Assembly (NCBI RefSeq): GCF_037300705.1
Contig: NZ_CP147776.1
Location: 3,286,001 to 3,350,000 of the forward strand
Length of the DNA: 64,000 bases
Direction: 5' to 3'
DNA from: Massilia sp. W12
GTDB taxonomy: Bacteria > Pseudomonadota > Gammaproteobacteria > Burkholderiales > Burkholderiaceae_D
Part shown: positions 19,026-46,510 of the stretch, one piece after another
Layout of the letters: every line of letters begins with the position of its first letter
How positions within the stretch are numbered: the first letter of the stretch is position 1
The notes under the pieces: model-generated
Database searches by the model: none
What the model was told of the DNA's origin: nothing
What the model saw: only the letters and a program-made list of their open reading frames with translations
Program-made: the position numbers and the translations under genes

Positions 19026-20408
19026 TCAGTACGCATTTTCGCGCTTGGCCACCACCAGCACGGTGCGAATAATAATCCACAAATCCAGGGTAAGCGACCA
19101 ATTCCGCACATAATCGAGGTCATACTCAATGCGCGCCTGCATCTTGTCCAGGGTTTCCGTTTCGCCGCGCAAACCATTCACCTGAGCCCAGCCTGTGATG
19201 CCGGGTTTGACCTTGTGGCGCAGCATATAGCCCTTGATCAGCTTGCGGTACATTTCATTGTGCGCAACCGCATGCGGACGCGGCCCGACAATGCTCATGC
19301 GGCCTTGCAGCACATTGATGAATTGCGGCAATTCGTCCAGCGAGGTCTTGCGTAAAAACGCGCCGACGCGGGTGACGCGCTGATCATTTTTTTGCGCCTG
19401 CCTGACCACAGCGCCATCGTCGGCCACCGTCATCGAGCGGAATTTATAGACGATGATCTCCTCGCCATACAGGCCATAGCGGCGCTGCTTGAAAATCGCC
19501 GGCCCCGGCGAAGTGATCTTGACCGCCGCCGCCACCACCAGCATGATGGGCAACAGCATCAACAAAATCAGGCTGCCCAAGACCAAATCGCTGGCGCGCT
19601 TGATCACGCTGTTGACGCCGGTAAACGGGGTTTCGCACACCGCCACCACCGGCATGCCGCCCAGATTGTCGATGCGCGCCTGCATCAAATCAAACACATA
19701 GATATCCGGCAGGAAATACACCGAAGCAGTGGTGTCTTGCAATTCATCGAGCAATTTGCGGATGCGCGGCTGGGCCGAAATCGGCTGGCTGATGAAGACC
19801 ATCTTGATATTGTGCTTGTGCACATAGTCCGCCACATCGCTCATCTTGCCCAAAGGCGTGATGTTCGCCCCCGGCGGCTGGCGCGACACATCGCGATCAT
19901 CAAAAAAGCCATGCAGATGCATGAACATATAGGGGTTGTCGGCGATGCGCTTGGAGAGTTTCAAGCCGACATCATTGACGCCGATGATGATCACCGAGCG
20001 CGATTCGCCTTCCTTGCCCGGATCAATCACCATGCGCCGCACCGCCATATGGCTCATGATCAAAGCAAACGGCGTGGCGCCGAACCAGATCAGCATCACA
20101 TCTTCATCGTATTTATGTTCAAAACCGGTGACATGGCCGATCAGATACAAAATTCCCACCGTCAACAGCCAACCGACGATGATGTCGCGGATATAGGCAA
20201 ACATCTTGCCGCCACGCCAGGAACGATATGGATCAATCTGCTCATAAATCATGCCGGAGATGAAAAAGACGATAATCGCCAGCAATAAATAGTATGCGCT
20301 GAAATGCACGTCGCAAGCCCAGCTCACCAGGTACAACACGCCCCAGATGATGGAAGGGTCGAGCAAACGCTTGGAAAAAGATACCAGCGGAATGTCGGTC
20401 ACTGTCAT
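19026..20408 (-). CDS. epsB: Undecaprenyl-phosphate glycosyl-1-phosphate transferase EpsB
   Basis: 460 residues. About four N-terminal membrane helices and a nucleotide-binding-like CoA domain (SVIIIGVNDVGLKLSKRI, about 135-250) precede a fifth helix (LVLGSLILLMLLPIMLVVAA) and the catalytic bacterial sugar transferase domain with FKQRRYG, YKFRSM, SLDELPQFINVLQGRMSIVG and GITGWAQVNGLRG. This matches the WcaJ/EpsB family, which moves a hexose-1-phosphate from UDP-sugar to undecaprenyl phosphate and so starts repeat-unit assembly at the inner membrane. It lies 40 bases downstream of epsL and is separated from epsD by a 233-base gap in which no promoter could be identified with confidence. Confidence 0.93.
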   Translation of the reverse strand: MTVTDIPLVSFSKRLLDPSIIWGVLYLVSWACDVHFSAYYLLLAIIVFFISGMIYEQIDPYRSWRGGKMFAYIRDIIVGWLLTVGILYLIGHVTGFEHKYDEDVMLIWFGATPFALIMSHMAVRRMVIDPGKEGESRSVIIIGVNDVGLKLSKRIADNPYMFMHLHGFFDDRDVSRQPPGANITPLGKMSDVADYVHKHNIKMVFISQPISAQPRIRKLLDELQDTTASVYFLPDIYVFDLMQARIDNLGGMPVVAVCETPFTGVNSVIKRASDLVLGSLILLMLLPIMLVVAAAVKITSPGPAIFKQRRYGLYGEEIIVYKFRSMTVADDGAVVRQAQKNDQRVTRVGAFLRKTSLDELPQFINVLQGRMSIVGPRPHAVAHNEMYRKLIKGYMLRHKVKPGITGWAQVNGLRGETETLDKMQARIEYDLDYVRNWSLTLDLWIIIRTVLVVAKRENAY

Positions 20409-20448
20409 ATTTATCGCGCCAAAGTGTCAGCGGGCGGCGCCCGCATTA

Positions 20449-21708
20449 TCAGTATTCGTAATGTGCATTCAAGCCAATGCGGTTGTTATGGTAGGAACGG
20501 TATTCCAGATTGGAATCCAACTGATCCCGTCCTACATTTGCTGAAACTTGTAATTTTGGCAGTGGAACCCAGGTCAAACCCAGTGTTGCATTATAGACTT
20601 TCTCGACCAGATTGACGTTCATGCCAGGCATCGGCACAGCCGTGCGCCGCTCCAGATTCAAACGGCCATCCAATCTGAGTTTGCTGGAAATATTCCACAC
20701 CGGAATGATGCGCAGCCCATTGCTGAGTGAGAGACTGGTGCTTTCCTTATCCACGCCATCAAGCGCACGCCAGAGTTGCGCGCCAAACTCCAGCTTGGCG
20801 CTGGCGCGCCAATTGCCATTCAGATGCCAATTCAGCCCGGAGTAATCGCGCTCCGGCTGAAATTGATATTTGCGCCGCACATAGCCGGTCAGCAATTGCA
20901 ACTCGGTTTTGGCGGAATAAGCCCAATGCAGCTTGAGCTTGATTTCATCCGTGCTGCGGTCAAACTTATCGGCGGAGCGTTCGCTGTCCTTGAACAGCGG
21001 AAAACCTTCGCCGGTGCGGCGCACCATCAAACTCAAACTGCTGCCGCTGGCCGGCAGCCAGTCCAGCCAGGCCTCGCGCGTGATCTGCTTGCGGTCAAAC
21101 ATCTTCACGGTATCAAGCTCATTGCTCAAATCCAGCCGGCCAAGCGTGCCGCGCAGGCGGAAACTCGGATGAAAACGCCAGCCGCCATCGACAAAACGGT
21201 TATTTTGCTGGCGCAAATTACGCAAACTCACCAGCACCCTGCCCTCATACACATCAAACGGACTCATGGTTTTGGAGTTGCTCACGCCCAGATTGCCGGC
21301 AATATGGTTGCCAAGCTGCCAGGCCAGCGTGGTTTGTCCCTCGCGGCTGTCGTAATTCAAATCCGTGTGATTTTGAAACTTGCTGTGCCCGAGCACGAAA
21401 CGGCCCTGCAACAGCTGGCGGCCAAATTTCTTTTCCAGCGCCAGACCAAGGCGGGTATTGAGTTCCCAGTCCTGGCGCGCCTGCTTATCGCGCGCCTGGC
21501 GCTCCTGCTCACTGACATTCGGATTTTCCACATCTGGCCGGCTGCGCAGATTGCTGGCGTAGTTATAACTGAGGTCGGCAAAAGGCGTGATCAGCTTGCC
21601 GCTTTCGGCATGCGCACTGGCCGCCGCCGTCAACAGCAGCAAGCCGCACAAGCGGCGGCAAAGCCGTGACGGAACTGCAGGGGCCATATTATTTTCGGGT
21701 TGGAACAC
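20449..21708 (-). CDS. epsL: XrtB-associated outer-membrane protein EpsL
   Basis: About 419 residues. The start is taken as GTG at 21708 because GAGG precedes it by five bases and it leads into a signal peptide (RLCGLLLLTAAASAHA-ES); ATG at 21687 is the alternative. A longer frame would overlap the upstream gene. The mature part is rich in alternating aromatic/polar beta strands (KFQNHTDLNY, LNWHLNGNWRASAKLEFGAQ) and ends in a C-terminal aromatic (HYEY), as outer-membrane barrels do. It resembles the EpsL/putative barrel proteins of exosortase-B loci. Role in secretion or anchoring of the polymer at the outer membrane is inferred from context. Confidence 0.85.
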   Translation of the reverse strand: MFQPENNMAPAVPSRLCRRLCGLLLLTAAASAHAESGKLITPFADLSYNYASNLRSRPDVENPNVSEQERQARDKQARQDWELNTRLGLALEKKFGRQLLQGRFVLGHSKFQNHTDLNYDSREGQTTLAWQLGNHIAGNLGVSNSKTMSPFDVYEGRVLVSLRNLRQQNNRFVDGGWRFHPSFRLRGTLGRLDLSNELDTVKMFDRKQITREAWLDWLPASGSSLSLMVRRTGEGFPLFKDSERSADKFDRSTDEIKLKLHWAYSAKTELQLLTGYVRRKYQFQPERDYSGLNWHLNGNWRASAKLEFGAQLWRALDGVDKESTSLSLSNGLRIIPVWNISSKLRLDGRLNLERRTAVPMPGMNVNLVEKVYNATLGLTWVPLPKLQVSANVGRDQLDSNLEYRSYHNNRIGLNAHYEY

Positions 21709-21745
21709 GCTTGCCTCACATGAATGCTTCACAGAAATTGCCATT

Positions 21746-22411
21746 TTACCAATATTGCCAATTTCCTGTCTGCAAAACCCAGACGCCGAGCACGCCATTC
21801 GTGACGGCATGGGCAAATACCGCCGTCCACAAATTGCGGCTCTTCATATAAAGGAAACCATACGCCAGACCGGCAATCACGCCGGCGAACCATTCGGTAT
21901 GCGACACCGCAAACACCAGCGAGACCGCGAGCAGCCATTGATAGGGGATCGCGTTTGGATCAACTTGCTGAAAATCCGGCTTGACCAGCCAGCGTTGCAA
22001 AAAGGAGCGGTAAAACAATTCTTCCATCAGCGGCACCACCAGCGTCGCGCCAAAGATGCGCGTGCCGACTAAAAACCAATTCATTTTGTCCGGCGTGGTG
22101 TGCGGATCATAGCCGCGCCCCTCGCCCATCAACATCCAGGGCAGATTGGCGTTGATCCACAGCACAAACACCAGCACGCCGACGCCCAGCGAAAGCGCAA
22201 GCGCGCGTGCGCCCATGGCGCGCCGCAATTCATCATATTCATGACGGAAGTACCACAAAGCAGCCATGACCAGGCTGATCTTGACCGGATACAGCCACAG
22301 CAGATCGGGCTTGGAGACATGCAAGACCTTGCCCAACAAGTCTTCTATCGCCAAAAACAGAATATAAATTGCAAACGGTAAACAACGCGCCAGCATTGGT
22401 TTTGTCAGCAT
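21746..22411 (-). CDS. CPBP/CAAX-protease-related membrane protein
   Basis: 221 residues from the ATG at 22411. Six to eight hydrophobic helices and the CPBP (Abi) family residues are all present: E130-E131 with R135 (PLMEELFYRS), H171 (VSHTEWFAG) and H201/N205 (FAHAVTNG). This is the type found beside exosortase genes and called CAAX prenyl protease-related. The active-site set suggests a working intramembrane metallo- or glutamate-type protease. It starts the epsL/epsB unit, 37 bases ahead of epsL, after a 285-base gap. Substrate unknown. Confidence 0.85.
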   Translation of the reverse strand: MLTKPMLARCLPFAIYILFLAIEDLLGKVLHVSKPDLLWLYPVKISLVMAALWYFRHEYDELRRAMGARALALSLGVGVLVFVLWINANLPWMLMGEGRGYDPHTTPDKMNWFLVGTRIFGATLVVPLMEELFYRSFLQRWLVKPDFQQVDPNAIPYQWLLAVSLVFAVSHTEWFAGVIAGLAYGFLYMKSRNLWTAVFAHAVTNGVLGVWVLQTGNWQYW

Positions 22412-22477
22412 AGTGTTCTCTAGGTTTGGAATGAATGGCCCGCCTGGCGCCTGCAAACCGGGACGCCAATCACGCCT

Positions 22478-22696: not shown

Positions 22697-23119
22697 TCAG
22701 GACATTGCGCCTTCTTTATTTGGCAACAAAGCCGTGGCCTCAATCTCAACTTTCGCCCGGCTTTCCAGCAAACCGGCCACCTGCAGCACCGACATCGCCG
22801 GGTAATGCGACCCCAGCACACGCCGATACGCCGCGCCAAGCGCAGCCCCGGCTTGCAGATATTCCTCACGCGACAGCACATACCAGGTCAGGCGCATGAT
22901 GTGCTGCGGCGCGCCGCCGGCCTCTTGCAATACCGCCAGCACATTTTGCAGCGCCTGCTCAGCCTGCGCCGCAAAATCATCCGACACCATACACTGCTGG
23001 CCATCCCAGCCTATACAACCGCTGATGCACACCAGCCGCGCGCCGCCGGGCAAGGGCGCCGCCACGCCATGCGCATAACCGCGTCCGCGCAGCCAACCGG
23101 GGGGCGATAAAAATTCCAT
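22697..23119 (-). CDS. RidA-family (YjgF/YER057c/UK114) protein
   Basis: 140 residues beginning MEFLSPPGWLRGRGYAHGVA; the ATG at 23119 follows the acyl-CoA dehydrogenase stop by one base. RidA-fold signatures: GGARLVCISGCIGWDG, FAAQAEQALQNVLAVLQEAG, RLTWYVLSREEY, YPAMSVLQVAGLLESRAKVEIEATA. Some RidA members deaminate enamine/imine intermediates; the arginine of the canonical active site is present in the RAKVEIEA segment. As the last gene of an aminobenzoyl-CoA-like operon it could hydrolyse an imine/enamine formed after ring reduction. A longer open frame upstream of the ATG is only antisense and shifted sequence of the dehydrogenase. Confidence 0.88.
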   Translation of the reverse strand: MEFLSPPGWLRGRGYAHGVAAPLPGGARLVCISGCIGWDGQQCMVSDDFAAQAEQALQNVLAVLQEAGGAPQHIMRLTWYVLSREEYLQAGAALGAAYRRVLGSHYPAMSVLQVAGLLESRAKVEIEATALLPNKEGAMS

Positions 23120-23120
23120 C

Positions 23121-24317
23121 TCACACTCCTTGCTGTAACACACTGCGCGCCACAATGTGCTGCTGCACTTCGCTGGCGCCTTCATAAATACGCAAAGCGC
23201 GCACTTCGCGATACAAGCGCGCCAGCGGATGGCCGTCGCACATCGCCGCCGCGCCGAATACTTGCTGGGCACGGTCAATAATCTGCTGGGCATGCTCGGT
23301 AGCCTGCCACTTGGCCTGCGCCACCGCCTGCGCCAGCGCGGCGTCTTGCGGCTGGCAATCATACAGCCAGGCGGCGCGCGCGCAGAGCAGGCCGGCCCCA
23401 TCCAGGCTGGCCGCCTGCTGCGCCAGCGTGGCAGCGCAAACCGCCTGATCCGCCAGCACGCCGCCATACATGGAGCGCTGTTTGGCGTGGCCGATGGCGC
23501 GCTGCAACGCGGCGCGCGCCATGCCCAAGGCCGCCGCCGCCACACTGCTGCGCAAAGCCTGCAAAACTTGCAGCGCCAGCGCATAACCACGCTGCGGCGC
23601 ACCCAACAGCGCCGCCGCCGGCAAGCCCACCCCATCCCAGGCGATGCGCGCCAAAGGATGCGGCGCTAACATCGTGAATTCCTCACACACCCGCCACGGC
23701 GACAGATGGCGCTCCACCACAAAGGCGGAAATGCCGTGCTGCGGCTTGGGCGTCTCGGCGCTGCGCGCAAATAGAATGCACACATCAGCATGCTGACCAT
23801 GTGAAATCCAGCACTTTTCACCCTGCACGACAAAACCATCCGGCTGCGGCCTGGCCTGGCAAGTCAAGGCGGCGGCGTCAGAACCGGCCGCGCTTTCAGA
23901 CAAGGCAAAAGCGCACAACACCTCCCCGCTGACAATCTGCGGCAGATACTGCGCCTGCTGCGCCGCACTGCCGCCGTGCAGCACGCTGGCCGCGCCCAAA
24001 GCCTGCATGGCGAACACAAAATCGGCCAGCGGCGCATAGCGCGCCAACACTTCGCGCTGCAAAACCAGGCTGCGCACAGAAAAAACCGCGCTATCAGCCA
24101 GACTGTCAAGCCAACCGCCCTGCCCCAGCAAGCGCGCAATCAGGCGGCAATCCTGCTCCATCGCTTGCGCGGTATGGCTGGCCGGATCATCCAAAGCAAT
24201 CCCGCGCCCGGCTAATGCGGGCAAGAGCGCGCCGCACACCCAGTCTTCAAACGCCTGCGCCATGGCGCGCTGGGCGTCGGTAAAAAACGGCGTCGCGCGC
24301 CAAGCCTGAATATCCAT
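23121..24317 (-). CDS. Acyl-CoA dehydrogenase family protein
   Basis: 398 residues from the ATG at 24317, one base after the hydratase stop, with GAGGG upstream. Full-length FAD enzyme: N-terminal helical domain, middle beta domain with CAFALSESAAGSD and GEKCWISHG, and C-terminal helical domain with the catalytic-region motif RALRIYEGASEVQQ. It oxidises an acyl-CoA at the alpha-beta bond and feeds electrons to ETF. In this operon it probably acts on a ring-derived or dicarboxylic acyl-CoA after ring opening. The coding sequence is very GC- and alanine-rich, like its operon partners. Confidence 0.9.
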   Translation of the reverse strand: MDIQAWRATPFFTDAQRAMAQAFEDWVCGALLPALAGRGIALDDPASHTAQAMEQDCRLIARLLGQGGWLDSLADSAVFSVRSLVLQREVLARYAPLADFVFAMQALGAASVLHGGSAAQQAQYLPQIVSGEVLCAFALSESAAGSDAAALTCQARPQPDGFVVQGEKCWISHGQHADVCILFARSAETPKPQHGISAFVVERHLSPWRVCEEFTMLAPHPLARIAWDGVGLPAAALLGAPQRGYALALQVLQALRSSVAAAALGMARAALQRAIGHAKQRSMYGGVLADQAVCAATLAQQAASLDGAGLLCARAAWLYDCQPQDAALAQAVAQAKWQATEHAQQIIDRAQQVFGAAAMCDGHPLARLYREVRALRIYEGASEVQQHIVARSVLQQGV

Positions 24318-24318
24318 C

Positions 24319-25149
24319 TTAATTTCCCTCAAATTGCAGCGGGCCGCGCGTGCTGAAAGCCTGATGCGCGCGCTTGAAATCGCCCGTCGCCATACACAGC
24401 GCCTGCGCCTGCGCTTCCGCCTCCAGCGCCTGCGGCAGCGACAGATTCCATTCCTGCTGCAACATTTTCTTGGTCATCGCATGGGCAAAGCGCGGCCCGG
24501 CGGCAAGCTCAGTCGCCAGCGCCAAGCCGGCCTGCGGCAAATCCGCCGCCGCATGCAGCGCCAGCAAATAGCCCCAGTCCAGCCCCTGTTGCGCCGTCAT
24601 ACTGCGCCCGCTGTATAACAACCAGGCCGCGCGCGCGGCCCCGATCTGGCGCGGCAACATCGCGCAAGCGCCCATATCCGCGCCGCACAAACCAACCCGG
24701 TTAAACAAAAAAGAAATCTGCGCCGCCGGCGTGGCCAGACGTAAATCCGCCGCCGTCGCCAGCATCGCGCCGGCCCCGGCGCACACCCCGTCCAGCAAGG
24801 CGATGATGGGTTGCGGACAATCCAGCATGGCCTGCACCACGGCGCAAGTCATGCGCGTGAATTCGAGCAATTCCGGCATGCTCATCTGCGTCAGCGGGCC
24901 GATGATTTCATGCACATCGCCGCCGGAACAGAAATCGGCCCCATCGCCGCTTAACAAAACCGCATGCACATCCGGCGCGCGCGCAATGCGCTGCAAAATT
25001 TCCAGCAAATGCGCATACGCGGCAAAGGTCAAAGCATGTTTGCGGGCGGGACGCACCAGGCGCACCCTCAAGACGCCGGCATCCAGCGCCAGCGCAATCT
25101 CAGAGCAAGGCGCGAGTTGCGCCAGCCAGGGGGCGAAAGCTTGTTTCAT
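24319..25149 (-). CDS. Enoyl-CoA hydratase/isomerase family protein
   Basis: 276 residues from the ATG at 25149, overlapping the upstream gene by ATGA. Crotonase fold: first oxyanion-hole region GADFCSGGDVHEI, second region GVCAGAGAMLATAADLRLAT, and FNRVGLCGADMGACAMLPRQ, a form common in hydratases of aryl-CoA degradation operons. It could hydrate, isomerise or hydrolytically open a cyclic CoA thioester. The order ligase, flavoprotein, hydratase, dehydrogenase, RidA supports a joint aromatic acid pathway. Exact reaction not determinable here. Confidence 0.88.
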   Translation of the reverse strand: MKQAFAPWLAQLAPCSEIALALDAGVLRVRLVRPARKHALTFAAYAHLLEILQRIARAPDVHAVLLSGDGADFCSGGDVHEIIGPLTQMSMPELLEFTRMTCAVVQAMLDCPQPIIALLDGVCAGAGAMLATAADLRLATPAAQISFLFNRVGLCGADMGACAMLPRQIGAARAAWLLYSGRSMTAQQGLDWGYLLALHAAADLPQAGLALATELAAGPRFAHAMTKKMLQQEWNLSLPQALEAEAQAQALCMATGDFKRAHQAFSTRGPLQFEGN

Positions 25150-27377
25150 GCGGATTCTCCAGAAAAAAGCGGCAAACTGATGCCGCGCGCCGCCGCCTGG
25201 CTGCGCGTCCAGGCCGGGTCTTGCAAATGGGGCCGGCCAATCGCACACAAATCGGCCCAGCCAGCCGCCAGCAAAGTGTCGGCCATCGCCATGTTTTGAA
25301 TATTCCCGGCGCACAACACCGGCATGCCGAGTTTGCGCCGGATCTGCGCCGCCGGCAATGCTTGATACATACGGCCATACGCCACCTGTTGATGGGGACT
25401 GACCTGCGCGCTCGACACGCTCAGCAAATCGGCCCCGCCGGCTTGCAGCAAGGCGGCGATTTGCAGCGCCTCATCCAGCGTATTGCCGCCCGCCACCCAA
25501 TCCAGCGCCGAGATGCGCACCGACAAAGGGCCGCGCCACACCGCGCGCACCGCCGCCAGCACTTGCAGCGGAAAACGGCAGCGCGCCGCCACATCGCCGC
25601 CATAGCCATCGCGACGCTGATTATAGAGCGGGGACAGAAAGCCGGACAGCAAATAGCCATGCGCGGCATGGATTTCCAACAGATCAAAACCGATCTGCGC
25701 AGCCAGCCGCGCGGCCGCGACAAAATCATCCAGAATCGCTTGCATGCCGGCCTCATCCAAGGCCTGCGGAGATGCTGAACGCCCGTCCTGCCAGGGCAGC
25801 GCACTGGCGGCAAACAAGGGCCAGGCTTGTGACGGCGGCAAGGGCGCCTCATAACCCAATCCGGCAGACGGCGGCAGACAAGCGCCCTTGGCTCCGGCAT
25901 GCCCGATTTGCGCCGCCAGCGCACAGCCGGCGGCGCGCGCCGTTTGCAGCACCGCGCGCCAGGCCGCCAGATCCGCAGCCTGCAAACTTAAACAAGCCGG
26001 CGTAATGCGCGCAGCCAGGCTCACCCCCAGCATTTCGGTGTACACCAGCGCCGCCCCGCCCTGCAGCAAGGCGCGCAAATGCGCCTGATGCCACGTCCCC
26101 AAACGCCCGTCCCTGGCCTGATATTGCGCCATCGGCGCGACCACGATACGGTTTGCCAGACGCAAACCGGCCAGCGCCAAAGGCTGCAAACAGGGCGCAG
26201 CCACCTGCCCCTGATTGCGGGCAAACCAGGCCGCATCCGCCGCCTGCAAATCGCTGTGCAGCACACGCATGCTGCGCGTCAGCAAGCTGTAGCAAAAAGC
26301 GCCAAAGTCTGCTTCAAACGGCGGATCAGCAAACCAATGCAAAGAATTATGGGCGGCATGCGCGCTGCGCATGAGTTGGCGCGGCCCCGCTTGCGCATAG
26401 GCGGCGCCGGCGGCGGCAAGAGAAGGCTGCTGCGCCAGCGTATGCGCCAGCAAGAGCGCATCCTGCCACGCCAGACGTGTCCCGGCGCCAATCGAAAAAT
26501 GCAGCTGATGGGCCGCATCGCCCAGTAAGAAAAGCGGGGTTTGGCCGGACTGCGCCTGCCAGCACGCGGCGACAAAGGGGTGAAATTGCTGCCACTGTGC
26601 GCCGGGCTGCGCCAACAGCGCCGCGCCCTGCAGCCAGTCGGCCAGGGTGTGCTGACAAAACGCCAGCCATTGCGCGCTGCTGGCGCCCGCCATATGCGCC
26701 TGCCACAGCGCCTCATCCGCTTCCAGCACCACACTGGCATGCCGCGCGGCGTGTGGATAGCAATGCGCATGCAGCCAGCCGTGCGGCGTTTGCACAAACA
26801 CAAAATGAAAGCCTGACAGCGCGCGCGCCAAGCCCAGCCAGACATAGCGCTTGGGGCGCGCCGGCATAGCCTGCTGCAGCGGCCCCGGCGCCGCCGCAAT
26901 CTGCAGCGCTTGCCGCCATGGACTGGCCACACCATCGCCAGCCAGCAGCAGATCCGCAGCAGGCGCCAGCTGCGCCGCATTATGCGGCAACAGCGGCGCA
27001 TCAAAATGCAGCGCAACCCCGGCCTGCTGCGCCGCCTGCGCCAAGACCTGCAACAACTGCCTGCGCCCAATCGCATACAGCGGCGCGGCCTGACACACAT
27101 CCTGCTGCGCCGGCTGGCCCAGACCCTGGCGCCAAATATGCAAAGCCTGAATCAGCTGCAAATGCGGCCGCAAAGCCGCCGCCGCCTGCGGCAGATGCGC
27201 CGCGCATTCCTCCAACCAGGCCGGCGGCAAAACCACGCCCCAGCCGGCCTGCTCCCACTGCGCCTTGGGATTGCGCTCATAAATACTGAGGCGATGCCCC
27301 TGCGCCCGCAGCAAGAGCGCGGCAAACAAAGCGGCCGGGCCAGCCCCGGCGCACGCGATCTGCAAAGGCCGGCTCAC
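25146..27377 (-). CDS. Two-domain aryl-CoA monooxygenase/OYE reductase (2-aminobenzoyl-CoA or salicylyl-CoA type)
   Basis: 743 residues with two flavin domains. Residues about 5-370 are a group A flavin monooxygenase: GAGPAALFAALLL near the N-terminus, AGDGVASPWR, and FLLGDAAHQLHFSIGAGTRL. Residues about 395-740 are an Old Yellow Enzyme-type NADH:flavin oxidoreductase: IVVAPMAQY, QIGHAGAKG, EIHAAHGYLLSGFLSP, NQRRDGYGG. This fusion is known for 2-aminobenzoyl-CoA monooxygenase/reductase of Azoarcus, which hydroxylates and then reduces the ring; salicylyl-CoA 5-hydroxylase annotations share the architecture. The RidA partner favours an amino substrate. It overlaps both neighbours by ATGA. Confidence 0.87.
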   Translation of the reverse strand: MSRPLQIACAGAGPAALFAALLLRAQGHRLSIYERNPKAQWEQAGWGVVLPPAWLEECAAHLPQAAAALRPHLQLIQALHIWRQGLGQPAQQDVCQAAPLYAIGRRQLLQVLAQAAQQAGVALHFDAPLLPHNAAQLAPAADLLLAGDGVASPWRQALQIAAAPGPLQQAMPARPKRYVWLGLARALSGFHFVFVQTPHGWLHAHCYPHAARHASVVLEADEALWQAHMAGASSAQWLAFCQHTLADWLQGAALLAQPGAQWQQFHPFVAACWQAQSGQTPLFLLGDAAHQLHFSIGAGTRLAWQDALLLAHTLAQQPSLAAAGAAYAQAGPRQLMRSAHAAHNSLHWFADPPFEADFGAFCYSLLTRSMRVLHSDLQAADAAWFARNQGQVAAPCLQPLALAGLRLANRIVVAPMAQYQARDGRLGTWHQAHLRALLQGGAALVYTEMLGVSLAARITPACLSLQAADLAAWRAVLQTARAAGCALAAQIGHAGAKGACLPPSAGLGYEAPLPPSQAWPLFAASALPWQDGRSASPQALDEAGMQAILDDFVAAARLAAQIGFDLLEIHAAHGYLLSGFLSPLYNQRRDGYGGDVAARCRFPLQVLAAVRAVWRGPLSVRISALDWVAGGNTLDEALQIAALLQAGGADLLSVSSAQVSPHQQVAYGRMYQALPAAQIRRKLGMPVLCAGNIQNMAMADTLLAAGWADLCAIGRPHLQDPAWTRSQAAARGISLPLFSGESA

Positions 27378-29032
27378 AGCGCCTCCAGCACGCTCTGCGC
27401 AGCGGCGGGCAATAGGCGGCGTTGCAATTTGCCGTTTTGATTGCGCGGCAGGGCCGCCACCGTCAGCCAGCGGCGCGGCATTTTATACGCCGCCAACACT
27501 TGCAGCCGGCGGCGTACATCCTGCTCCAGCGCCGCGCTCCAGACGGCGCCCTCTTGCAACACCAGCAAGGCCGCCAAAATCTGCCCGCGCTGCGCCTCCG
27601 GCAACAGGCAGACTGCCGCTTGCGCGACTTCGGGCTGGCCTTGCAACAGCAATTCGACTTCCAGCGGAGCCAGATTATGCCCATCCAACACCAGCAGATC
27701 ATCGCAACGGCCATGGAAAAAAATCCAGCCCTGCGCATCCATATGCGCCGCATCCCCGCTCAGATTCCAAGCCTGCTGCACATACTCGCCCTGGCGGCCG
27801 GAATCGCCTTCGCGCCAATAGCGGCAACCGCTCGGCCCCTGCACCGCCAGCCGCCCCGGCACGCCCGGCGCACAGGCTTGGCCGGCCTGATCCAATACCG
27901 CCACCCGGTAAGGCGGCAAGGCGCGCCCCAGGGCGCCGGGCGGGGCCGCCTGCCCGCTGGCGGGGCCGGCGATAAACACATGCAACATTTCGGTGGCCCC
28001 CAGCGCATCCAGCAGCGGAACATGGCTGGCGTCTTGAAACGCCTGCCGGGTGGCCTGCGGCAAGGCTTCGCCAGCGCTGATGGCCAGGCGCAAGCGCGCC
28101 GGCGGCAAATCCAGGCGCGCCAGCTGGCGATAAAACAGGGGGGAAGAAAAACACAGCGTCGCGCCGCAATCGCGCGCGCGCTGCCAAAACGCCGCCGGCG
28201 GCAGATGCGGCCCCAACAGCGCCGCCGCGCCATGCGCTAAAGGAAACAAGAGCAATCCGCCCAAGCCATAGGTGAAGGCCAGCGAAGGGGTGCCGCTGCA
28301 GACATCGTCGGCATGCAGCTGCAGATGGCGCGGAAAATAGTCGCATATCGCAAACAAGGCGCGCTGGTCATGCGCACACAATTTAGGCTGACCGCTGCTG
28401 CCTGAGGTTTGCGCCAGCAGGCAGATATCGTCCGGTGCGCCGGCATGCAGCGGCGCGGCGGGCAAATCGCGCCCGGCTTGCGCCAACTGCCAGAGGTCGC
28501 CGGTTTGCGCGCTGAGGGCATCGGGCGGCAAGTTCAGGGTCGGCGGCGGTTCACCCTCGCAGGCGGCCAGCCATTCCGGCAGCAAATCCGGGTCGCACAG
28601 CATCAAGCTGATTTCCCCCGGGCCAAAGCGTGCGCGCAATTTCGCCAATTCATGCCGGCGCAACATCGGCCCGCACAACAGCACTTGCGCGCCCTGCCGC
28701 CACAAGGCCAGCACAGCGGCTCCCAGCATGGGCGAATTCGGCGCATACAACAGCACCCGGCTGCCGGCCCCTATGCCCTGCCCCACCAGCGCCGTGGCCA
28801 GCAATTCGCAGCGCGCCGCCAGCGCCGCATAGCTCAAGCGCTCATGCACACCGATCAGCGCCGTGCGCGCGCCAAAGCGCGCCAGCGCGTCGGCCCCTAA
28901 CAGCCATTCATATAGATTGAATTGCGGCGGCAGCGCCGGCTGCGCCAAAAACAGCGGCCAATCCTGCGGCGGCGGTAAATCAGCCAGCGCGCGGCCAAGT
29001 GCTGATGCGGGAGAAGAGTGCAAAGCGGACAT
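27374..29032 (-). CDS. Aryl-CoA ligase (benzoate/2-aminobenzoate-CoA ligase family)
   Basis: 552 residues from the ATG at 29032 (MSALHSSPASALGRALADLP); alternative starts at 29059 or further upstream lack support, and no strong ribosome site is seen at any. ANL adenylate-forming enzyme: FNLYEWLLGADALARFG near the N-terminus, P-loop LLAQTSGSSGQPKLCAHDQ, A5-type motif LDALGATEMLHVFIA, FHGRCDDLLVLDGHNLAPLE and NGKLQRRLLP with the C-terminal catalytic lysine. It activates an aromatic acid with ATP and CoA and is the first gene of the operon. Substrate (anthranilate, benzoate or other) is inferred only from context. Confidence 0.87.
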   Translation of the reverse strand: MSALHSSPASALGRALADLPPPQDWPLFLAQPALPPQFNLYEWLLGADALARFGARTALIGVHERLSYAALAARCELLATALVGQGIGAGSRVLLYAPNSPMLGAAVLALWRQGAQVLLCGPMLRRHELAKLRARFGPGEISLMLCDPDLLPEWLAACEGEPPPTLNLPPDALSAQTGDLWQLAQAGRDLPAAPLHAGAPDDICLLAQTSGSSGQPKLCAHDQRALFAICDYFPRHLQLHADDVCSGTPSLAFTYGLGGLLLFPLAHGAAALLGPHLPPAAFWQRARDCGATLCFSSPLFYRQLARLDLPPARLRLAISAGEALPQATRQAFQDASHVPLLDALGATEMLHVFIAGPASGQAAPPGALGRALPPYRVAVLDQAGQACAPGVPGRLAVQGPSGCRYWREGDSGRQGEYVQQAWNLSGDAAHMDAQGWIFFHGRCDDLLVLDGHNLAPLEVELLLQGQPEVAQAAVCLLPEAQRGQILAALLVLQEGAVWSAALEQDVRRRLQVLAAYKMPRRWLTVAALPRNQNGKLQRRLLPAAAQSVLEAL

Positions 29033-29110
29033 CGGGCAAGCCCACGGAAAAGCGCGCATTGTAGGGGGAATCGGACGCGGCGGCAACCAGGGCCGGGCGC
29101 AGCCTGCTTT

Positions 29111-32629: not shown

Positions 32630-32756
32630 GGCGCATCAACCGGATGAACCGGATAACAGCGTAGCAAAGGGGGAACAGGCGCAGGCCGGGTTGCGCACGG
32701 CGATAACCCGGCGTCCGACACCATTCGCACCACAAACAAACCCGCCCCCGCGCACA

Positions 32757-40741: not shown

Positions 40742-42544
40742 ATGGAAAAACAAGACAGCGCGCCCGCGCCTGAGAGCGTGCCGGCGCAACACAAAACCAG
40801 TTTGGCGATGTTAAAGGGCTTGCTGCCCTTTATGCGCCCGTATCGCAATACTTTTCTGCTGGCCGGCATCGCCCTGTTGCTGGCGGCCGGTTCCACCTTG
40901 ACCATTCCGCTGGCCTTCAAGCGCATGATCGACCTGGGCTTTGGCCCCGGCAGCGCAGGGGCTGAGCACGTCAACAGCGCATTTTTAACCCTGTTCGCAG
41001 TCGCCACCCTGCTGGCGCTGGCCACCGCCTGCCGTTTTTATCTGGTCTCCTGGCTGGGCGAACGTGTCACCGCCGACATCCGCAGCGCAGTCTATCGGCA
41101 TGTGGTGCAGCAAAGTCCGCAATTTTTTGAAACCGCCAAAACCGGCGAAGTCTTATCGCGCTTAACCACCGACACCACCTTGATTCAAAGCCTGGTCGGC
41201 ACCAGTATTTCCATGGCGCTGCGCAATATGCTGCTGTTCATCGGCGGCTTGATCATGCTGTTCATCACCAGCCCGCGCTTATCCGCCATCATCCTGGTGC
41301 TGTTGGCCGGCGTGGTGCTGCCGATTGTGGCGTTCGGACGGCGCGTGCGCCGCCTGTCGCGCGATTCGCAAGACCGCATCGCCGATGCTTCCGCGCTGGC
41401 GGGCGAAATGCTCAACGCCATGAGCACGGTGCAGGCTTACACCCACGAACAAAGAGAAGCGGCGCGCTTTGACGACTCGGTGCAGCGCGCTTTCGCCACC
41501 GCCGTGGCGCGCATCCGTGCGCGCGCCTTGTTGACCATGCTGGCGATTTTGCTGGTGTTTGGCAGCATTGTGTTTGTGCTGTGGCTGGGCGCGCACGCGG
41601 TGCTGGAAGGCCGCATGACCGGCGGCGAACTGGGCCAATTCATTTTATATGCCGCCACCGTGGCCGGCTCGATTGGCGCTTTGTCGGAAGTGATGGGCGA
41701 AGCGCAACGCGCCGCCGGCGCCACCGAACGTCTGCTGGATTTGCTGGCCTTGCAAAGCCCGATTCAATCGCCGGCGCAGCCGCAGGCGCTGCCCGCGCGC
41801 ACCGAAAACGGCGCCGCGCTCACCTTGCGCGACCTGTTCTTCCACTACCCGTCCCGCCCCGACGCCGCCGCCCTGTCCCATGTCTCGCTCGACATCCGCC
41901 CCGGCGAAACCGTGGCGCTGGTCGGCCCCTCCGGCTCCGGCAAAAGCACGCTGTTCCAACTGCTGCTGCGTTTTTATGATCCGCAAAAGGGACAAATCAA
42001 ACTCGACGGCGTGGACATCCGCCAACTCGGCTTGCAAGATTTGCGCAGCGCGATTGGCATCGTGCCGCAAGACACCGTGATTTTTTCCGCGAATGCGATG
42101 GAAAACATCCGCTATGGCCGGCCCGAAGCGAGCGATGCGGAAGTGATTGCAGCAGCCAAGATGGCGGCGGCGCATGAATTCATTGAACGCCTGCCGCAAG
42201 GTTATCAAGCGTTTTTGGGGGAACGCGGGGTGCGCTTATCCGGCGGCCAGCGCCAGCGCATCGCGATTGCGCGCGCCTTGCTGAAAAATCCGCCACTCTT
42301 GCTGCTCGACGAAGCCACCAGCGCGCTGGATGCGGAATCTGAACGTCTGGTGCAAGGCGCGCTGGAAGCTGCGATGGAGGGCCGCACCACCCTGATTATT
42401 GCGCACCGTTTGGCCACCGTGAAAAAGGCCGATCGCATCATCGTGCTGGAACACGGCCAGATCGTCGAAAGCGGCAGCCACGCCAGCCTGCTGGCGCAAG
42501 GCGGGGTGTATGCGAATTTGGCGAAGTTGCAGTTTCACAGTTAA
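40742..42544 (+). CDS. MsbA-related ABC exporter (fused permease/ATPase)
   Basis: 600 residues from the ATG at 40742. Six membrane helices (about 30-330) with the coupling region TADIRSAVYRHVVQQSPQFFE, then a nucleotide-binding domain: Walker A GPSGSGKST, Q-loop VPQDTVIF, signature LSGGQRQR, Walker B LLLLDEATSALD, H-loop IIAHRLAT. It is a half-transporter acting as a homodimer. It resembles the MsbA-related subgroup rather than MsbA itself; lipid or drug export is possible. Position after lpxH hints at an envelope role. No strong ribosome site; the end of lpxH is five bases away, so coupling is likely. Confidence 0.9.
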   Translation: MEKQDSAPAPESVPAQHKTSLAMLKGLLPFMRPYRNTFLLAGIALLLAAGSTLTIPLAFKRMIDLGFGPGSAGAEHVNSAFLTLFAVATLLALATACRFYLVSWLGERVTADIRSAVYRHVVQQSPQFFETAKTGEVLSRLTTDTTLIQSLVGTSISMALRNMLLFIGGLIMLFITSPRLSAIILVLLAGVVLPIVAFGRRVRRLSRDSQDRIADASALAGEMLNAMSTVQAYTHEQREAARFDDSVQRAFATAVARIRARALLTMLAILLVFGSIVFVLWLGAHAVLEGRMTGGELGQFILYAATVAGSIGALSEVMGEAQRAAGATERLLDLLALQSPIQSPAQPQALPARTENGAALTLRDLFFHYPSRPDAAALSHVSLDIRPGETVALVGPSGSGKSTLFQLLLRFYDPQKGQIKLDGVDIRQLGLQDLRSAIGIVPQDTVIFSANAMENIRYGRPEASDAEVIAAAKMAAAHEFIERLPQGYQAFLGERGVRLSGGQRQRIAIARALLKNPPLLLLDEATSALDAESERLVQGALEAAMEGRTTLIIAHRLATVKKADRIIVLEHGQIVESGSHASLLAQGGVYANLAKLQFHS

Positions 42545-42689
42545 CCGCGCAGGGTGGGCGCGTCTGTTTCGCCCCCACCCCACATGGCAGGCGACATTGC
42601 GCGAAAACGCATTATGAAATAAGCCGCGCAGAGAATAGCACGGCGGCGCGCCTGTCCAAGCAGCGGCTATCCATGCGTGAAGGCGGATG

Positions 42690-43184
42690 ATGAAACGGGC
42701 GGAAAAACGACTTGCACGGCAAATCAAACAGCGCAGCAATGTTGCACTGGCTGAGCCACGTTTATGGTCAAACAAAAGTCAGCAATCCGTACAGGCCATC
42801 TGGGCCAAAGAATACCGCGATATCCACTACCACTGCAGCAAATGCCATGCCGCCGCAGTCTTTTCAGCGCAAGATCAAAAGCACAGCTACGAGATTAAGA
42901 AAGCCTATATTGATCAAAAGCGGCGTCTATGCCATGACTGCTGGCTGGAATCATTGCGGATCAAACAGGCGCTGCAAGATTATGCAAACAAGTGGCATAC
43001 GCAAAAAAATGTTTTGCGCACGGACGAAAACTTCCTGCAAGCTTGGCTGGATTTGGTTTTATTGCATAAACTGTATTTAAGTCGCAAAGAGGATACGGCC
43101 AGGATCAATATGATTAAAAGACTTCTGGATGCTCTGCAAACCTCCAAAGCAATAGCTGATACGCTCGACGCAGCTATAAAGTAA
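42690..43184 (+). CDS. Zinc-ribbon domain protein of unknown function
   Basis: 164 residues (another ATG sits one codon upstream; AGG spacing favours this one). Residues about 48-88 hold a treble-clef-like zinc ribbon: CSKC then RRLCHDCW, with FSAQDQKHSYEIKKAY between, as in the 'probable zinc-ribbon' family. The N-terminus is basic (KRAEKRLARQIKQR) and the C-terminal half is helical without known domain. It is the first of four genes joined by TAATG or longer overlaps. It also marks the left edge of an AT-richer accessory island. Function unknown; nucleic acid or protein binding is possible. Confidence 0.75.
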   Translation: MKRAEKRLARQIKQRSNVALAEPRLWSNKSQQSVQAIWAKEYRDIHYHCSKCHAAAVFSAQDQKHSYEIKKAYIDQKRRLCHDCWLESLRIKQALQDYANKWHTQKNVLRTDENFLQAWLDLVLLHKLYLSRKEDTARINMIKRLLDALQTSKAIADTLDAAIK

Positions 43185-43687
43185 TGCTTATTCAGTTTTC
43201 TCCAACACTGTCCCATATTCCATTTCAATACAACCACGCTAACGCGAAGGCAGGCATAGCAATCTCATACAGCCTAAATTTATGCTATGATAAACTTCAA
43301 CTCAACTACAACGCAACACTAAAAATGTTTCCACTGAGTACTATTTCTGACTGGTTGACATTCCTCCCTTCTGTCGATGGGGAATTGGAACATGGCGAAT
43401 GGATTATTCGCATTCATTCTTTTTCTGACGACAAGGCCAGTCTTGTCTTTGAGAAAGAATTCTACGAAAGCAATAAGCATGCGCCCGGCTTGACAAAGTA
43501 TATTTTGACAACCCCCGCAGGAAAAAATCATTTATTGCACATTCTCCACTTCCTGGAAAGCAATGAATTCAATCTGCAGAAAATTCTTTCCTCATTGGAG
43601 GGCATGGAATTTGACGAAGTAGATGAGGTTTGCCTTGGCAAGTATGGAGATTATCAATTCATGGCCATGAAATTTGAGGCCAGATAA
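43184..43687 (+). CDS. Hypothetical protein, coupled to zinc-ribbon and toxin genes
   Basis: 167 residues, starting at a TAATG overlap with the zinc-ribbon gene and ending at a TAATG overlap with the next. No recognised domain, signal peptide or membrane helix. It is aromatic-rich with acidic patches (WLTFLPSVDGELEHGEW, LEGMEFDEVDEVCLGKYGDY) and looks like a small alpha/beta globular protein, of the kind often seen as immunity or accessory proteins, but nothing specific supports that. Base composition is lower in GC than flanking housekeeping genes. Confidence 0.7.
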   Translation: MLIQFSPTLSHIPFQYNHANAKAGIAISYSLNLCYDKLQLNYNATLKMFPLSTISDWLTFLPSVDGELEHGEWIIRIHSFSDDKASLVFEKEFYESNKHAPGLTKYILTTPAGKNHLLHILHFLESNEFNLQKILSSLEGMEFDEVDEVCLGKYGDYQFMAMKFEAR

Positions 43688-43857
43688 TGAATAAAAACAA
43701 GCAAAATACAGCATTTTTACTGCGCAACAAAAAAACCCAAAAAGATGCGACTGAAAAGAAGAGTGAAATTGATTGGCGTGCGGCGGCAATCAAAGGCGAA
43801 CGTCTCTTGAAATCCCCAACACTGTACAAAAAATCGGAGTTCACAGAATGGGAGTAA
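43687..43857 (+). CDS. Small protein, candidate antitoxin of the YafO-family toxin
   Basis: 56 residues, MNKNKQNTAFLLRN... to KSEFTEWE. It starts in a TAATG overlap with the preceding gene and overlaps the following YafO-like toxin by 10 bases, so it is almost surely translated with both. The sequence is strongly basic in its first half (many Lys) with an acidic/aromatic C-terminus, as expected of a short, partly disordered toxin-binding protein. It does not look like YafN/Phd. Assignment as antitoxin rests on position only. It is too short to be found by common gene-length filters. Confidence 0.65.
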   Translation: MNKNKQNTAFLLRNKKTQKDATEKKSEIDWRAAAIKGERLLKSPTLYKKSEFTEWE

Positions 43858-44246
43858 AAATTACAACAGCCAGTTTTCTGGAAAATCAATTAAGCCGAAA
43901 TGATCTGGAAGAGCTGGTCGAAGCATTCAGAAAATTCAAAGCAGATGGTGATTGCACAGACTTTTTCGGACGCGATTATCCTTACATGGGACCGCAGAAA
44001 GTAAAAGATGAAGATTTATGGCATGCACACATTCCTGATCCCGGCAGCCCCAGATTTAAATTGAGGGTAACTCAATTCAGACGCAGCAGCGATACCGCAC
44101 TGGTTTATTGTCGCGCATATTTTGATGACGATCATTATCTCTTGATCGGGATTTTGTACACTGCCCACACCGCCTATCAACAAACCCCGCGAACGTGGTA
44201 TTTACCTTTTCTTGAAATTGCAAAAGAATTTCGAGAGAGTCATTAA
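43848..44246 (+). CDS. YafO-family type II toxin (mRNA interferase)
   Basis: 132 residues from the ATG at 43848, the same length as E. coli YafO. Shared landmarks in order: LSRNDLEELVEAFRKFKADG, FGRDYPY, the HAHIPDP segment (HIHL in YafO), FRRSSDTALVYCRAYFDDDHYLLIGIL, TAHTAYQQT and a final IAKEFRES. YafO cuts mRNA in association with the ribosome and blocks translation. Here the partner is not a YafN-like gene but a 56-residue protein that overlaps the toxin start. The last gene of a coupled four-gene run; the following 269 bases hold no recognised gene. Confidence 0.85.
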   Translation: MGVKITTASFLENQLSRNDLEELVEAFRKFKADGDCTDFFGRDYPYMGPQKVKDEDLWHAHIPDPGSPRFKLRVTQFRRSSDTALVYCRAYFDDDHYLLIGILYTAHTAYQQTPRTWYLPFLEIAKEFRESH

Positions 44247-44515
44247 TATCAGAATGTTCACATTGAGCTTATCCTCGTCAGATCGAATTCATCAAAATAT
44301 TTTTGAAAATCAAGGAAATATATTTTCAGAAACATTAATGAAATATCAAAATTTATCAACCATGATTATTCACTAATGAAACGCTGATTAATTCATTTTT
44401 TCGCCGATTTCCGCTTCGTGACTCATTGGTTTATATAGATATGCGAATTTGAAATTCGATTAAATCAGTACTTCCTTAATTCCATTTTCAACAAACAGAA
44501 AACACAGGTAAAATT

Positions 44516-44803
44516 ATGCAATTAGAAATTGAATGGCAAACAGGCACACCAAAATTCCAAGATTTATACTTGGCCGCGATTAAATTGGAAAATGATGCAG
44601 GTTACTATGCATTTCTTTCCTGGGATGGAGAAACTTGGGATCAAACTTACCCAGAGGAGGTGATAGCATTTTATCCTGCTAGCGAGTTTGTCCGCCTTGC
44701 AGGACCAAAGTGGCCGGAGCCGGAACTTACGCCTGAAATAAAAGAAACATCCAAAACAGATATTGACAAATCAGAATTTGAAGAATTCGATCCGGATGCA
44801 TAA
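44516..44803 (+). CDS. Small acidic hypothetical protein
   Basis: 95 residues with CAGG ahead of the ATG. Strongly acidic, especially the C-terminus (KSEFEEFDPDA), with a W-rich core (YAFLSWDGETWDQTYPEE, GPKWPEPEL). No signal peptide, no known domain. The compact beta-like pattern recalls small phage or immunity proteins, but this is only an impression. It stands alone in the AT-rich island between the YafO-type toxin and another orphan gene; 269 bases before and 164 after it are empty. Confidence 0.55.
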   Translation: MQLEIEWQTGTPKFQDLYLAAIKLENDAGYYAFLSWDGETWDQTYPEEVIAFYPASEFVRLAGPKWPEPELTPEIKETSKTDIDKSEFEEFDPDA

Positions 44804-44967
44804 CAAGAACTTGGTGCTATATGTTACTTTCCATAGAATTCCCGCAAATACACGCATTGATCCGCAATGAATTTCATGGCGGGCTATTACAATAGAAATG
44901 AAGAATAATCATACAATCAGGTATTTTACAACTCTTATCTAAAAAAAGGATTCAATAACCACCTCCC

Positions 44968-45348
44968 ATGGAAGCTCCCCCGCCAGAATTTACCCCATTA
45001 CGTATTGGTGAAGTTATTTTTCGCCCTGACGAAGATGTATTCCCCGAACGCCAGCCTGGCGCCGAGTATTTGGCGGCTTTTGATGTGAAAACCAATGTCA
45101 AACTTTGGACAGTAAAGATTGCAGACCCATTACGTAACAGTCCAGGCGCGCCGCAACCTTACAGCGCTGTTCATATGACGCATTTGCAGAACCTGGAAAA
45201 TGAAAACGCGATTTTAGTCACGATGCAATTTGGCAAGCGTTACAAGCTTGATTTGCAGAGCAAAACTGTGACTTTGGTTTTTAACCCATTTGAAGGCAAG
45301 GAAAAAACAGCGCCAGTGGGAGATATGCCGCCAAGACCCAAGCGCTGA
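44968..45348 (+). CDS. Hypothetical protein
   Basis: 126 residues. No Shine-Dalgarno sequence is obvious at the ATG, so the start is uncertain. No signal peptide or known domain. The pattern of short strands (YLAAFDVKTNVKLWTVKI, ILVTMQFGKRYKLDLQSKTVTLVF) suggests a beta-propeller-blade-like or small beta protein, and the tail is Pro/Lys-rich. Codon use is closer to the chromosome average than that of its left neighbours. Function unknown. The 195 bases after it contain nothing recognised. Confidence 0.6.
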   Translation: MEAPPPEFTPLRIGEVIFRPDEDVFPERQPGAEYLAAFDVKTNVKLWTVKIADPLRNSPGAPQPYSAVHMTHLQNLENENAILVTMQFGKRYKLDLQSKTVTLVFNPFEGKEKTAPVGDMPPRPKR

Positions 45349-45543
45349 TTGGTTTGAAAGGCTGCTGCAAGCGACGTGCAAATCTATGCAAGTATGCAGC
45401 AGCCATCGTTTATGCAAACGGGTTCCCTGCCCCGCAAAACAGTAAAGATAATTTCATGCCTCCATTGGAGCTGAATAAACACGAATGGATTAACCGGGCA
45501 TAGTCGCATCAATGGAACGAAATCATACTTGCACCATGCAGAG

Positions 45544-46113
45544 TCACAACAAATCCCGATAGCGCTCCAATTGCTTAGCCGTCATGCTTAATCTATTTTT
45601 ATCCAACCTCAGGAAAAAATCTTGCACAGACATAGGCGGGGCTTTAAACCTTTCACGCATAGCCTTCAGCACAGGAACAATTGCCCCCGGATTGTCGAGG
45701 ATCAAATCAGAGATGAATTTATCCGGCGACTCTGCAATCACACCAAAAACTTTCAACACTTTGTTTGGAAAATCACTCAAATTCCAGGTGACAATTTTCT
45801 GTGCGCCACTTGCAATAGCCGCAGCCACCACATGCCTGTCATCTTTATCCGGAATATTGACCTCGGCAATGTAACGTTCATAATTACTGATCAAAGCCGC
45901 TGGTTTGATTTTATTCATCAAATCCAGCGTTCTGCCAATTTTCACTTCCGTAATATCAGGTTCATTTTTCAATAAATGCCCAACCCACTCCCGGGTGATT
46001 TTTTCAGTCCACTTTGCTTCATAGATGCCGGCAAAAAAGAGTGAAAGCAATAAATCCCGCAGGAAGCTGCCATATAATACATTGGCGTCCAGGACAATTT
46101 TTGATTTACTCAT
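45544..46113 (-). CDS. PIN-domain toxin (VapC-like ribonuclease)
   Basis: 189 residues. PIN fold with D9 in IVLDANVLYG, the acidic cluster IPDKDDRHVVAAAIASGA in the middle and TWNLSDFP, which supply the metal-binding acids of the nuclease. The C-terminal 60 residues extend past the minimal PIN domain. It overlaps the antitoxin-like gene upstream by ATGA (46110-46113), the common order for type II modules. Expected to cut tRNA, rRNA or mRNA when free of its partner; target unknown. Confidence 0.83.
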   Translation of the reverse strand: MSKSKIVLDANVLYGSFLRDLLLSLFFAGIYEAKWTEKITREWVGHLLKNEPDITEVKIGRTLDLMNKIKPAALISNYERYIAEVNIPDKDDRHVVAAAIASGAQKIVTWNLSDFPNKVLKVFGVIAESPDKFISDLILDNPGAIVPVLKAMRERFKAPPMSVQDFFLRLDKNRLSMTAKQLERYRDLL

Positions 46114-46388
46114 TCCGCATCTCCATCCTTTCGTGGTCTGCGCAACAAATGTTCAGGCACCGGCTCTGTATATGTGCGCCAATCCACATCTGCAACCAAA
46201 TCCGTAAATTCCGCCCACACTTCTTTATTGGGCAAATCAGTGGGATCTTTTGCGTAAATGGTGACCGTACCTTTCTCCGTATCAATAAAGAAATGCAATG
46301 GAATGCTTTGCGGCAATAATTCCAAAGCCTCTGGCGGCACTTGCAGCAGTCCATTTTGGATGCTGGCATAAGCAGTTTTAATTGCCAT
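46110..46388 (-). CDS. Antitoxin partner of the PIN-domain toxin
   Basis: 92 residues, first gene of the toxin pair, with GAGGAG upstream of the ATG. The N-terminus (MAIKTAYASIQNGLLQVPPEALELLP) reads like a short beta/AbrB-type or MazE-like strand pattern, and the C-terminus is acidic/basic and probably disordered (DWRTYTEPVPEHLLRRPRKD), as in toxin-wrapping tails. Identification rests on its size, position and overlap with the PIN gene. Confidence 0.72.
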   Translation of the reverse strand: MAIKTAYASIQNGLLQVPPEALELLPQSIPLHFFIDTEKGTVTIYAKDPTDLPNKEVWAEFTDLVADVDWRTYTEPVPEHLLRRPRKDGDAE

Positions 46389-46510
46389 GTGACATTCTCC
46401 TCATACCCAGATTGCAGTGAGGGCATCATAGCAGATCGTATTCATGCAAGCCGATTCACCACAAACAAAATGCGCAGGCTTTTGCATGCTTCACCAAACC
46501 CGGCGCATGC

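Follow-up and report, generated by a model that had tools for sequence, protein, structure and literature searches.

The aerobic 2-aminobenzoyl-CoA pathway of Azoarcus evansii, encoded by the abm genes, is the closest described system. It comprises a CoA ligase and a monooxygenase/reductase flavoenzyme, and its later steps are ascribed to beta-oxidation enzymes (PMC4539516, PMC8388817). For Arthrobacter, a role in anthranilate breakdown was proposed for a ligase and a fusion of this type, and the activity of the ligase was measured (PMC3534580). Fusions of an FAD-dependent monooxygenase with an Old Yellow Enzyme (OYE) domain are widely annotated as salicylyl-CoA hydroxylases; the genes that accompany them fit anthranilate.

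We analyzed a 64,000-nucleotide stretch of the Massilia sp. W12 genome (hereafter, the window) that contains a five-gene operon at positions 22697-29032 of the minus strand. Like the A. evansii set, which we compare by its published description, the operon combines a CoA ligase with a monooxygenase/reductase flavoenzyme, and the remaining genes are in keeping with later steps of the beta-oxidation kind; the Arthrobacter pair is likewise compared by description. Unlike in A. evansii, the substrate is predicted only, and the proteins are far from every relative that we compared. We consider it probable that this is the 2-aminobenzoyl-CoA (abm-like) operon of the Massilia/Duganella/Janthinobacterium family, residing at an old locus, cut to five genes and fast-evolved, with enzymes that still work. 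It would thus be a catabolic operon of a known kind whose state, stripped and fast-evolved, is unusual, and the anthranilate type is the best available assignment for it. Because the regulator gene is lost and the proteins have changed far more than those of relatives, we are unsure of the present substrate, and the aromatic acid has possibly shifted. A literature search, conducted mostly outside subscription journals, found no paper on this diverged form of the operon.

Organization of the operon

A frame check shows that all five genes are intact and tightly packed, with overlapping or one-base junctions. The first gene (27374..29032, minus strand) starts with ATG and encodes a 552-aa AMP-forming aryl-CoA ligase with the Pfam domains AMP-binding and AMP-binding_C. 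Next is a 743-aa FAD monooxygenase/OYE fusion of the 2-aminobenzoyl-CoA monooxygenase/reductase type (25146..27377, minus strand; NF006101; Pfam FAD_binding_3 and Oxidored_FMN), whose GTG start overlaps the ligase stop. It is followed, through an ATGA overlap, by a 276-aa crotonase of the PRK08258 type (24319..25149, minus strand; NF006107) and, after a one-base gap, by a 398-aa acyl-CoA dehydrogenase (23121..24317, minus strand; Pfam Acyl-CoA_dh_1 and _M). Another one-base gap precedes the last gene, which encodes a 140-aa Rid-family protein (22697..23119, minus strand; Pfam Ribonuc_L-PSP). Gene ends, Pfam and NCBIfam therefore agree with the compact operon with ATGA or one-base junctions that an initial annotation of this DNA had described, and the gene set fits the CoA-dependent aerobic anthranilate type that it had named. 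Upstream of the ligase gene lies a promoter-like site, TTGCCG-17-TACAAT (29058..29086, minus strand); the consensus scan of the region returned two sites against 1.3 expected, so that this site is a weak candidate.

In the proposed route, the ligase would make the aryl-CoA, the FAD domain would hydroxylate the ring, and the OYE domain would reduce it to an amino-oxo-cyclohexene-carbonyl-CoA that is no longer aromatic. Deamination, opening and oxidation of this product would then fall to the Rid protein, crotonase and acyl-CoA dehydrogenase, and 3-hydroxyacyl-CoA dehydrogenase activity would come from elsewhere in the genome. We infer the substrate and each catalytic step by analogy, and likewise a control that operates without a local MarR.

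The canonical operon and its distribution

The initial annotation regarded the gene set as rare. This did not hold, since 207 of 392 family genomes, the window's own included, have a match to the fusion at an E-value no higher than 1e-80; in a class sample, fusions were found in 15 of 369 genomes at E 1e-100, again counting the window's own. Loci of the Massilia/Duganella/Janthinobacterium type (L035, L051, L089 and others) usually run ligase, fusion, (SDR), MarR, crotonase, dehydrogenase, Rid, with the shared genes in the same order as in the window, and in several other loci the ligase gene is at the opposite end. Around the fusion, the best 80 of 529 named loci mostly encode relatives of the four remaining operon proteins, a company that speaks for the abm-like assignment. 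Paracoccus and Deinococcus fusions are also accompanied by SDR, MarR, crotonase, dehydrogenase, ligase and Rid genes. A complete anthranilate-type operon on a Deinococcus plasmid (L145) lies beside genes for a cyclase-family protein and a thiamine-pyrophosphate enzyme, neighbors that perhaps link it to indole or auxin degradation.

The window operon differs from the canonical one in gene content and in sequence. The canonical operon usually contains MarR and often SDR, whereas the window operon lacks both. MarR is present in 63 and SDR in 44 of 67 comparable loci (those among the best 80 of 529 matches that hold fusion, crotonase and dehydrogenase); this tally counts presence anywhere in the locus under score limits of our choosing, an unrelated SDR could count as present, and some absences may be cut-offs, as 23 of the 67 loci are shorter or without a ligase or Rid match. 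In the window's genome, the usual MarR has no match at 1e-10 and the usual SDR nothing above 42% identity. Average identity to ten canonical rows is 42-60% for the window proteins, compared with 75-85% among those rows.

No gene for a 3-hydroxyacyl-CoA dehydrogenase, a transporter or a regulator lies within the operon. The initial annotation had pointed to all three as missing. The dehydrogenase is indeed absent from the operon, but the gene that usually fills the gap is an SDR, which is also absent in 23 of the 67 loci; the missing regulator is the rarer feature, as MarR is absent in 4 of these 67 loci drawn from the best 80 of 529 matches. Three 3HCDH-domain matches lie elsewhere in the genome, where it had proposed to look for beta-oxidation genes, and its idea that the operon is a variant is supported.

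A locus shared with other genera

Genes for a sugar transferase, a BBP2 porin and a CAAX-type protease flank the operon in the window (19026..22456, minus strand; Pfam and synteny). We compared the distance between operon and sugar-transferase gene in four complete genomes from other genera: it is at most about 20 kb in three (G156, G336 and G202), whereas the two are far apart in the fourth (G334). In those three, whose loci we chose because their coordinates put both genes close together, the sugar-transferase and porin genes flank the operon in the order and relative orientation of the window, and the protease gene does so in two. The three differ from the window in having an additional 6-12 kb between the Rid gene and the protease or porin gene. 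In a sister species of the same genus (G001, 68% complete), a Rid gene adjoins the same CAAX-type protease gene; its product and the window's Rid protein are 55% identical. Against ten Oxalobacteraceae rows, the sister-species protein reaches 65-72% identity and the window's 55-63%.

Because this exopolysaccharide locus is shared with other genera, the operon appears to be the 2-aminobenzoyl-CoA-type operon of the family in an old location. The shared order and orientation in three of the four genomes and the position of the sister-species Rid gene both speak for this reading, and the distance between operon and exopolysaccharide gene in G334 speaks against it. The shared locus is our main argument for descent, which the gene trees (see below) do not settle.

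The monooxygenase/OYE fusion

The window's genome (one contig, 6.14 Mb) encodes one fusion. Its best NCBIfam model is NF006101 (bifunctional salicylyl-CoA 5-hydroxylase/oxidoreductase, equivalog), with a score of 634.6 bits; this is below the cut-off of 1078 bits, whereas the relative from Massilia sp. CF038 (L051) reaches 1379.9. We compared 20 presumed cofactor and catalytic positions, chosen on our own assumption of their roles and invariant or nearly so among 80 relatives. The window fusion keeps 19 of them across both domains, and the one change replaces the third glycine of the FAD motif with alanine. The predicted model has a mean pLDDT of 84.4. Its FAD part resembles VioD (Z 37.9 over 349 residues, in an alignment that extends into the second domain), and the OYE part resembles ene-reductases (Z 46.4); the best 50 Foldseek rows are OYE structures only, and the match of the FAD part comes from a second comparison.

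The fusion has no close relative in any of the samples. The closest other family fusion is 44% identical, and none exceeds this value in 392 family genomes, which are a sample from a larger group. None is above 40% among the matches in 369 class genomes or above 42% (best segment) among the best 80 of 529 named-genome matches, and the listed plasmid rows reach 42.5% at best. The two halves have changed unevenly. Identity to the relatives is 34% in the FAD half and 48% in the OYE half, against averages of 72% and 77%, respectively, when the relatives are compared with each other. The initial annotation had proposed to judge the assignment by the catalytic residues of both domains and by the place of the fusion in a tree; the checked residues are kept in both domains, but the fusion clusters firmly with no group. 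A fusion so diverged and apparently catalytically intact would be a natural test of the residues that set the substrate.

The name of the NCBIfam model invites the reading that the operon encodes a true salicylyl-CoA 5-hydroxylase route to gentisate. In addition, a Massilia study assigns sdgC, perhaps another gene than this fusion, from annotation (PMC13215587). We regard this reading as very unlikely. Two annotated loci (L138 and L139), which we take to be salicylate-type, do have a related FAD hydroxylase domain and a benzoate-type CoA ligase, as the window does, but their hydroxylase lacks the OYE part and is accompanied by genes for a thioesterase, a cupin, a maleylpyruvate isomerase and a fumarylacetoacetate hydrolase. 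The window has an OYE part, a crotonase, a dehydrogenase and a Rid protein instead.

Two Rhizobium and Nitratireductor plasmid loci (L137 and L138) carry the salicylate-type FAD hydroxylase and the benzoate-type CoA ligase in one frame.

The ligase and a possible supply of anthranilate

Among solved structures, the window ligase matches a benzoate-CoA ligase best (165 bits), with the anthranilate-CoA ligase 4wv3 at 142 bits. The ligase of the canonical relative L051 has 4wv3 as its best match (290 bits; benzoate ligases about 254), which is a point in favor of the anthranilate-type assignment of this operon family, as is the Arthrobacter proposal. In the alignment, the window ligase keeps the motifs that we take to be those for nucleotide binding and the lysine. 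At the pocket position that we take, by numbering, to be Tyr228 of BadA, the window shares tyrosine with four rows that we regard as salicylate-type (two of them with annotated genes of the gentisate type); phenylalanine stands there in the 14 printed ligases of the anthranilate type.

This pocket, unlike that of anthranilate-type ligases, counts against the abm-like assignment and is a point for a tentative, rather unlikely alternative, in which the operon as a whole has become adapted to a different aromatic acid that is dearomatized by the same chemistry. Freed of MarR and of a tryptophan-derived supply, the operon would have been re-specialized by rebuilding the FAD domain and the ligase pocket while ring reduction and the downstream chemistry were kept. 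The loss of MarR and the greater change of the FAD half are in line with such a shift. However, the tyrosine is not decisive for the substrate because benzoate-CoA ligases accept 2-aminobenzoate too (PMC8388817). In addition, the FAD domain has the salicylate-type residue at only 3 of 63 columns particular to fusions, in a comparison with five salicylate-type loci of which two have an annotated gentisate-type neighborhood.

Kynureninase releases anthranilate, and its gene is present in the window's genome (G000:C1:1729334-1730509, in L223), which favors the abm-like assignment. Tryptophan dioxygenase (PF03301) was found in neither genome of this genus, one of which is incomplete, and its gene lies beside that of kynureninase in all four other genera searched; its absence counts against the assignment. 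A gene that is HtpG-like by sequence alone lies directly beyond the kynureninase gene in the window's genome.

The crotonase, acyl-CoA dehydrogenase and Rid protein

The crotonase scores 374.1 bits with NF006107, above the curated cut-off of 330, which supports the abm-like assignment. Its active-site segments resemble those of relatives, and the acyl-CoA dehydrogenase keeps the YEGAS motif with the catalytic glutamate; the roles of these segments and of the glutamate are those that we assume. The Rid protein has methionine at the position of the catalytic Arg105 of RidA, as do all 63 relatives aligned with it (64 rows; the relatives are loci among L035-L114, out of the best 80 of 529 matches). 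In RidA, Arg105 binds the substrate carboxylate and its replacement with alanine almost abolished imine hydrolysis (PMC4433059). A Rid protein without this arginine would fit a CoA-thioester substrate, because a thioester has no free carboxylate, and the alignment thus suggests a role on CoA thioesters for Rid proteins of the operon type. The agreement of the window's Rid protein with its operon relatives rather than with RidA, together with the catalytic residues that appear to be kept in the other enzymes, argues for the abm-like reading.

Divergence of the operon and of its host

We placed the fusion in a tree of 56 fusions under a mixture model (34 of the best-80 named loci, 7 plasmid loci, 14 class loci and the window). 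The window forms a very long branch, with an end branch of 5.42 changes per column against a median of 0.23 and against 1.28 and 2.16 for two archaeal fusions. Split by domain, the end branch is 6.46 for FAD and 2.7 for OYE, and its extreme length is mostly owed to the FAD domain. With a long-branch artifact in mind, we used a mixture model, under which the end branch stays long in both domains. The other window branches measure 3.86 (ligase), 3.82 (crotonase), 3.68 (dehydrogenase) and 1.03 (Rid), with medians of 0.18-0.24; the window is exceeded by a Streptomyces row in both the crotonase tree (8.62 against 3.82) and the dehydrogenase tree (4.14 against 3.68).

Of the columns that are at least 95% conserved in relatives, the window keeps 204/335 in the fusion, 130/179 in the ligase, 118/178 in the dehydrogenase, 101/127 in the crotonase and 36/42 in the Rid protein. 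The rows of the best 80 loci that passed the 85% length filter numbered 80, 61, 68, 71 and 63, respectively. The 131 of 335 fusion columns that differ and the score below the NF006101 cut-off both tell against the abm-like assignment. So do the trees, which do not place the operon proteins: the Rid tree pairs the window with one Oxalobacteraceae row (95/84, weak), and a quick crotonase tree pairs it with another, proteobacterial row (90, weak). A quick ligase tree had the window in a starred 12-row set with Massilia and Janthinobacterium nearest; we dropped this placement because the careful ligase tree does not contain that set.

To give a host baseline, the extra distance of the operon proteins was set against that of eight other window genes, hand-picked, with two to four relatives each from genomes different from those used for the operon genes, and including glk and malK, which have paralogs. 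The operon values are 0.68 (fusion), 0.58 (dehydrogenase), 0.56 (ligase), 0.42 (crotonase) and 0.31 (Rid), and the host values range from -0.05 to 0.37, so that Rid falls inside this range and the other four above it. Expressed as a ratio, the contrast is weaker, with 0.9-3.9 for host genes and 2.5-4.6 for operon genes. The kynureninase of this genome shares 60-63% identity with three relatives, among which identity is 71-83%. By these comparisons, the divergence appears to be owed to both host and operon. The four values of 0.42-0.68 above all eight host genes favor a shift of the operon to another aromatic acid, but the partly host-wide divergence, with the AlkA ratio of 3.9 inside the operon range, weakens this point.

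No internal stop interrupts the 2,109 sense codons of the five frames; among random codons of the same composition, about 52 stops would be expected. Together with the 19 of 20 positions kept in the fusion, this indicates that selection still acts, as the abm-like reading with working enzymes has it. An improbable alternative is that the operon is a relic under relaxed selection and on its way to loss. MarR, SDR and tryptophan dioxygenase are missing, several host genes are fast-evolving, and in the sister genome, which is 68% complete, no fusion was found and the 226 bases left upstream of Rid on the contig hold no dehydrogenase match. A relic would nonetheless be at odds with five intact frames, with retained catalytic residues and with the confident predicted fold of the fusion.

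Base composition and other features of the window

The operon genes have a GC content of 0.64-0.67 and 15-22% alanine, figures that were computed on slightly longer frames for the crotonase and dehydrogenase and on a much longer one for Rid, which makes the Rid value unsafe. The GC and alanine richness remarked on in the initial annotation thus stands as a number, but the third-position GC of the five genes pooled (0.74) is not unusual here, since 0.65-0.78 covers most of the frames listed for the window. The surplus GC comes from the amino-acid content and is no sign of foreign DNA. The nearby tilS is likewise rich (17% alanine, 9% glutamine).

The biosynthetic use that had been suggested on this basis found no support; the alanine and GC content point to neither a foreign nor a biosynthetic origin. 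That the operon is a recently acquired or biosynthetic cluster is the least credible of the readings, even with its high alanine and GC and with no fusion relative closer than 44% identity among the matches listed. Pfam finds no secondary-metabolite domain in four neighboring proteins, and horizontal acquisition is rejected because third-position GC is ordinary and the locus is shared with other genera.

Directly upstream of the operon, the window encodes a bacterial lipoxygenase (PF00305; 29256-31151, minus strand), which has a partial match (58%) in the sister genome and none in five other family genomes at 1e-15. In the gap between tilS and accA (about 32670-32744), some 40-67 bases match 16 other sites of the same genome and constitute a dispersed repeat. 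Finally, the region at about 42500-46500 is low in GC (0.39-0.41 at its minimum) and holds small frames, unlike the remaining window, and is possibly acquired DNA.
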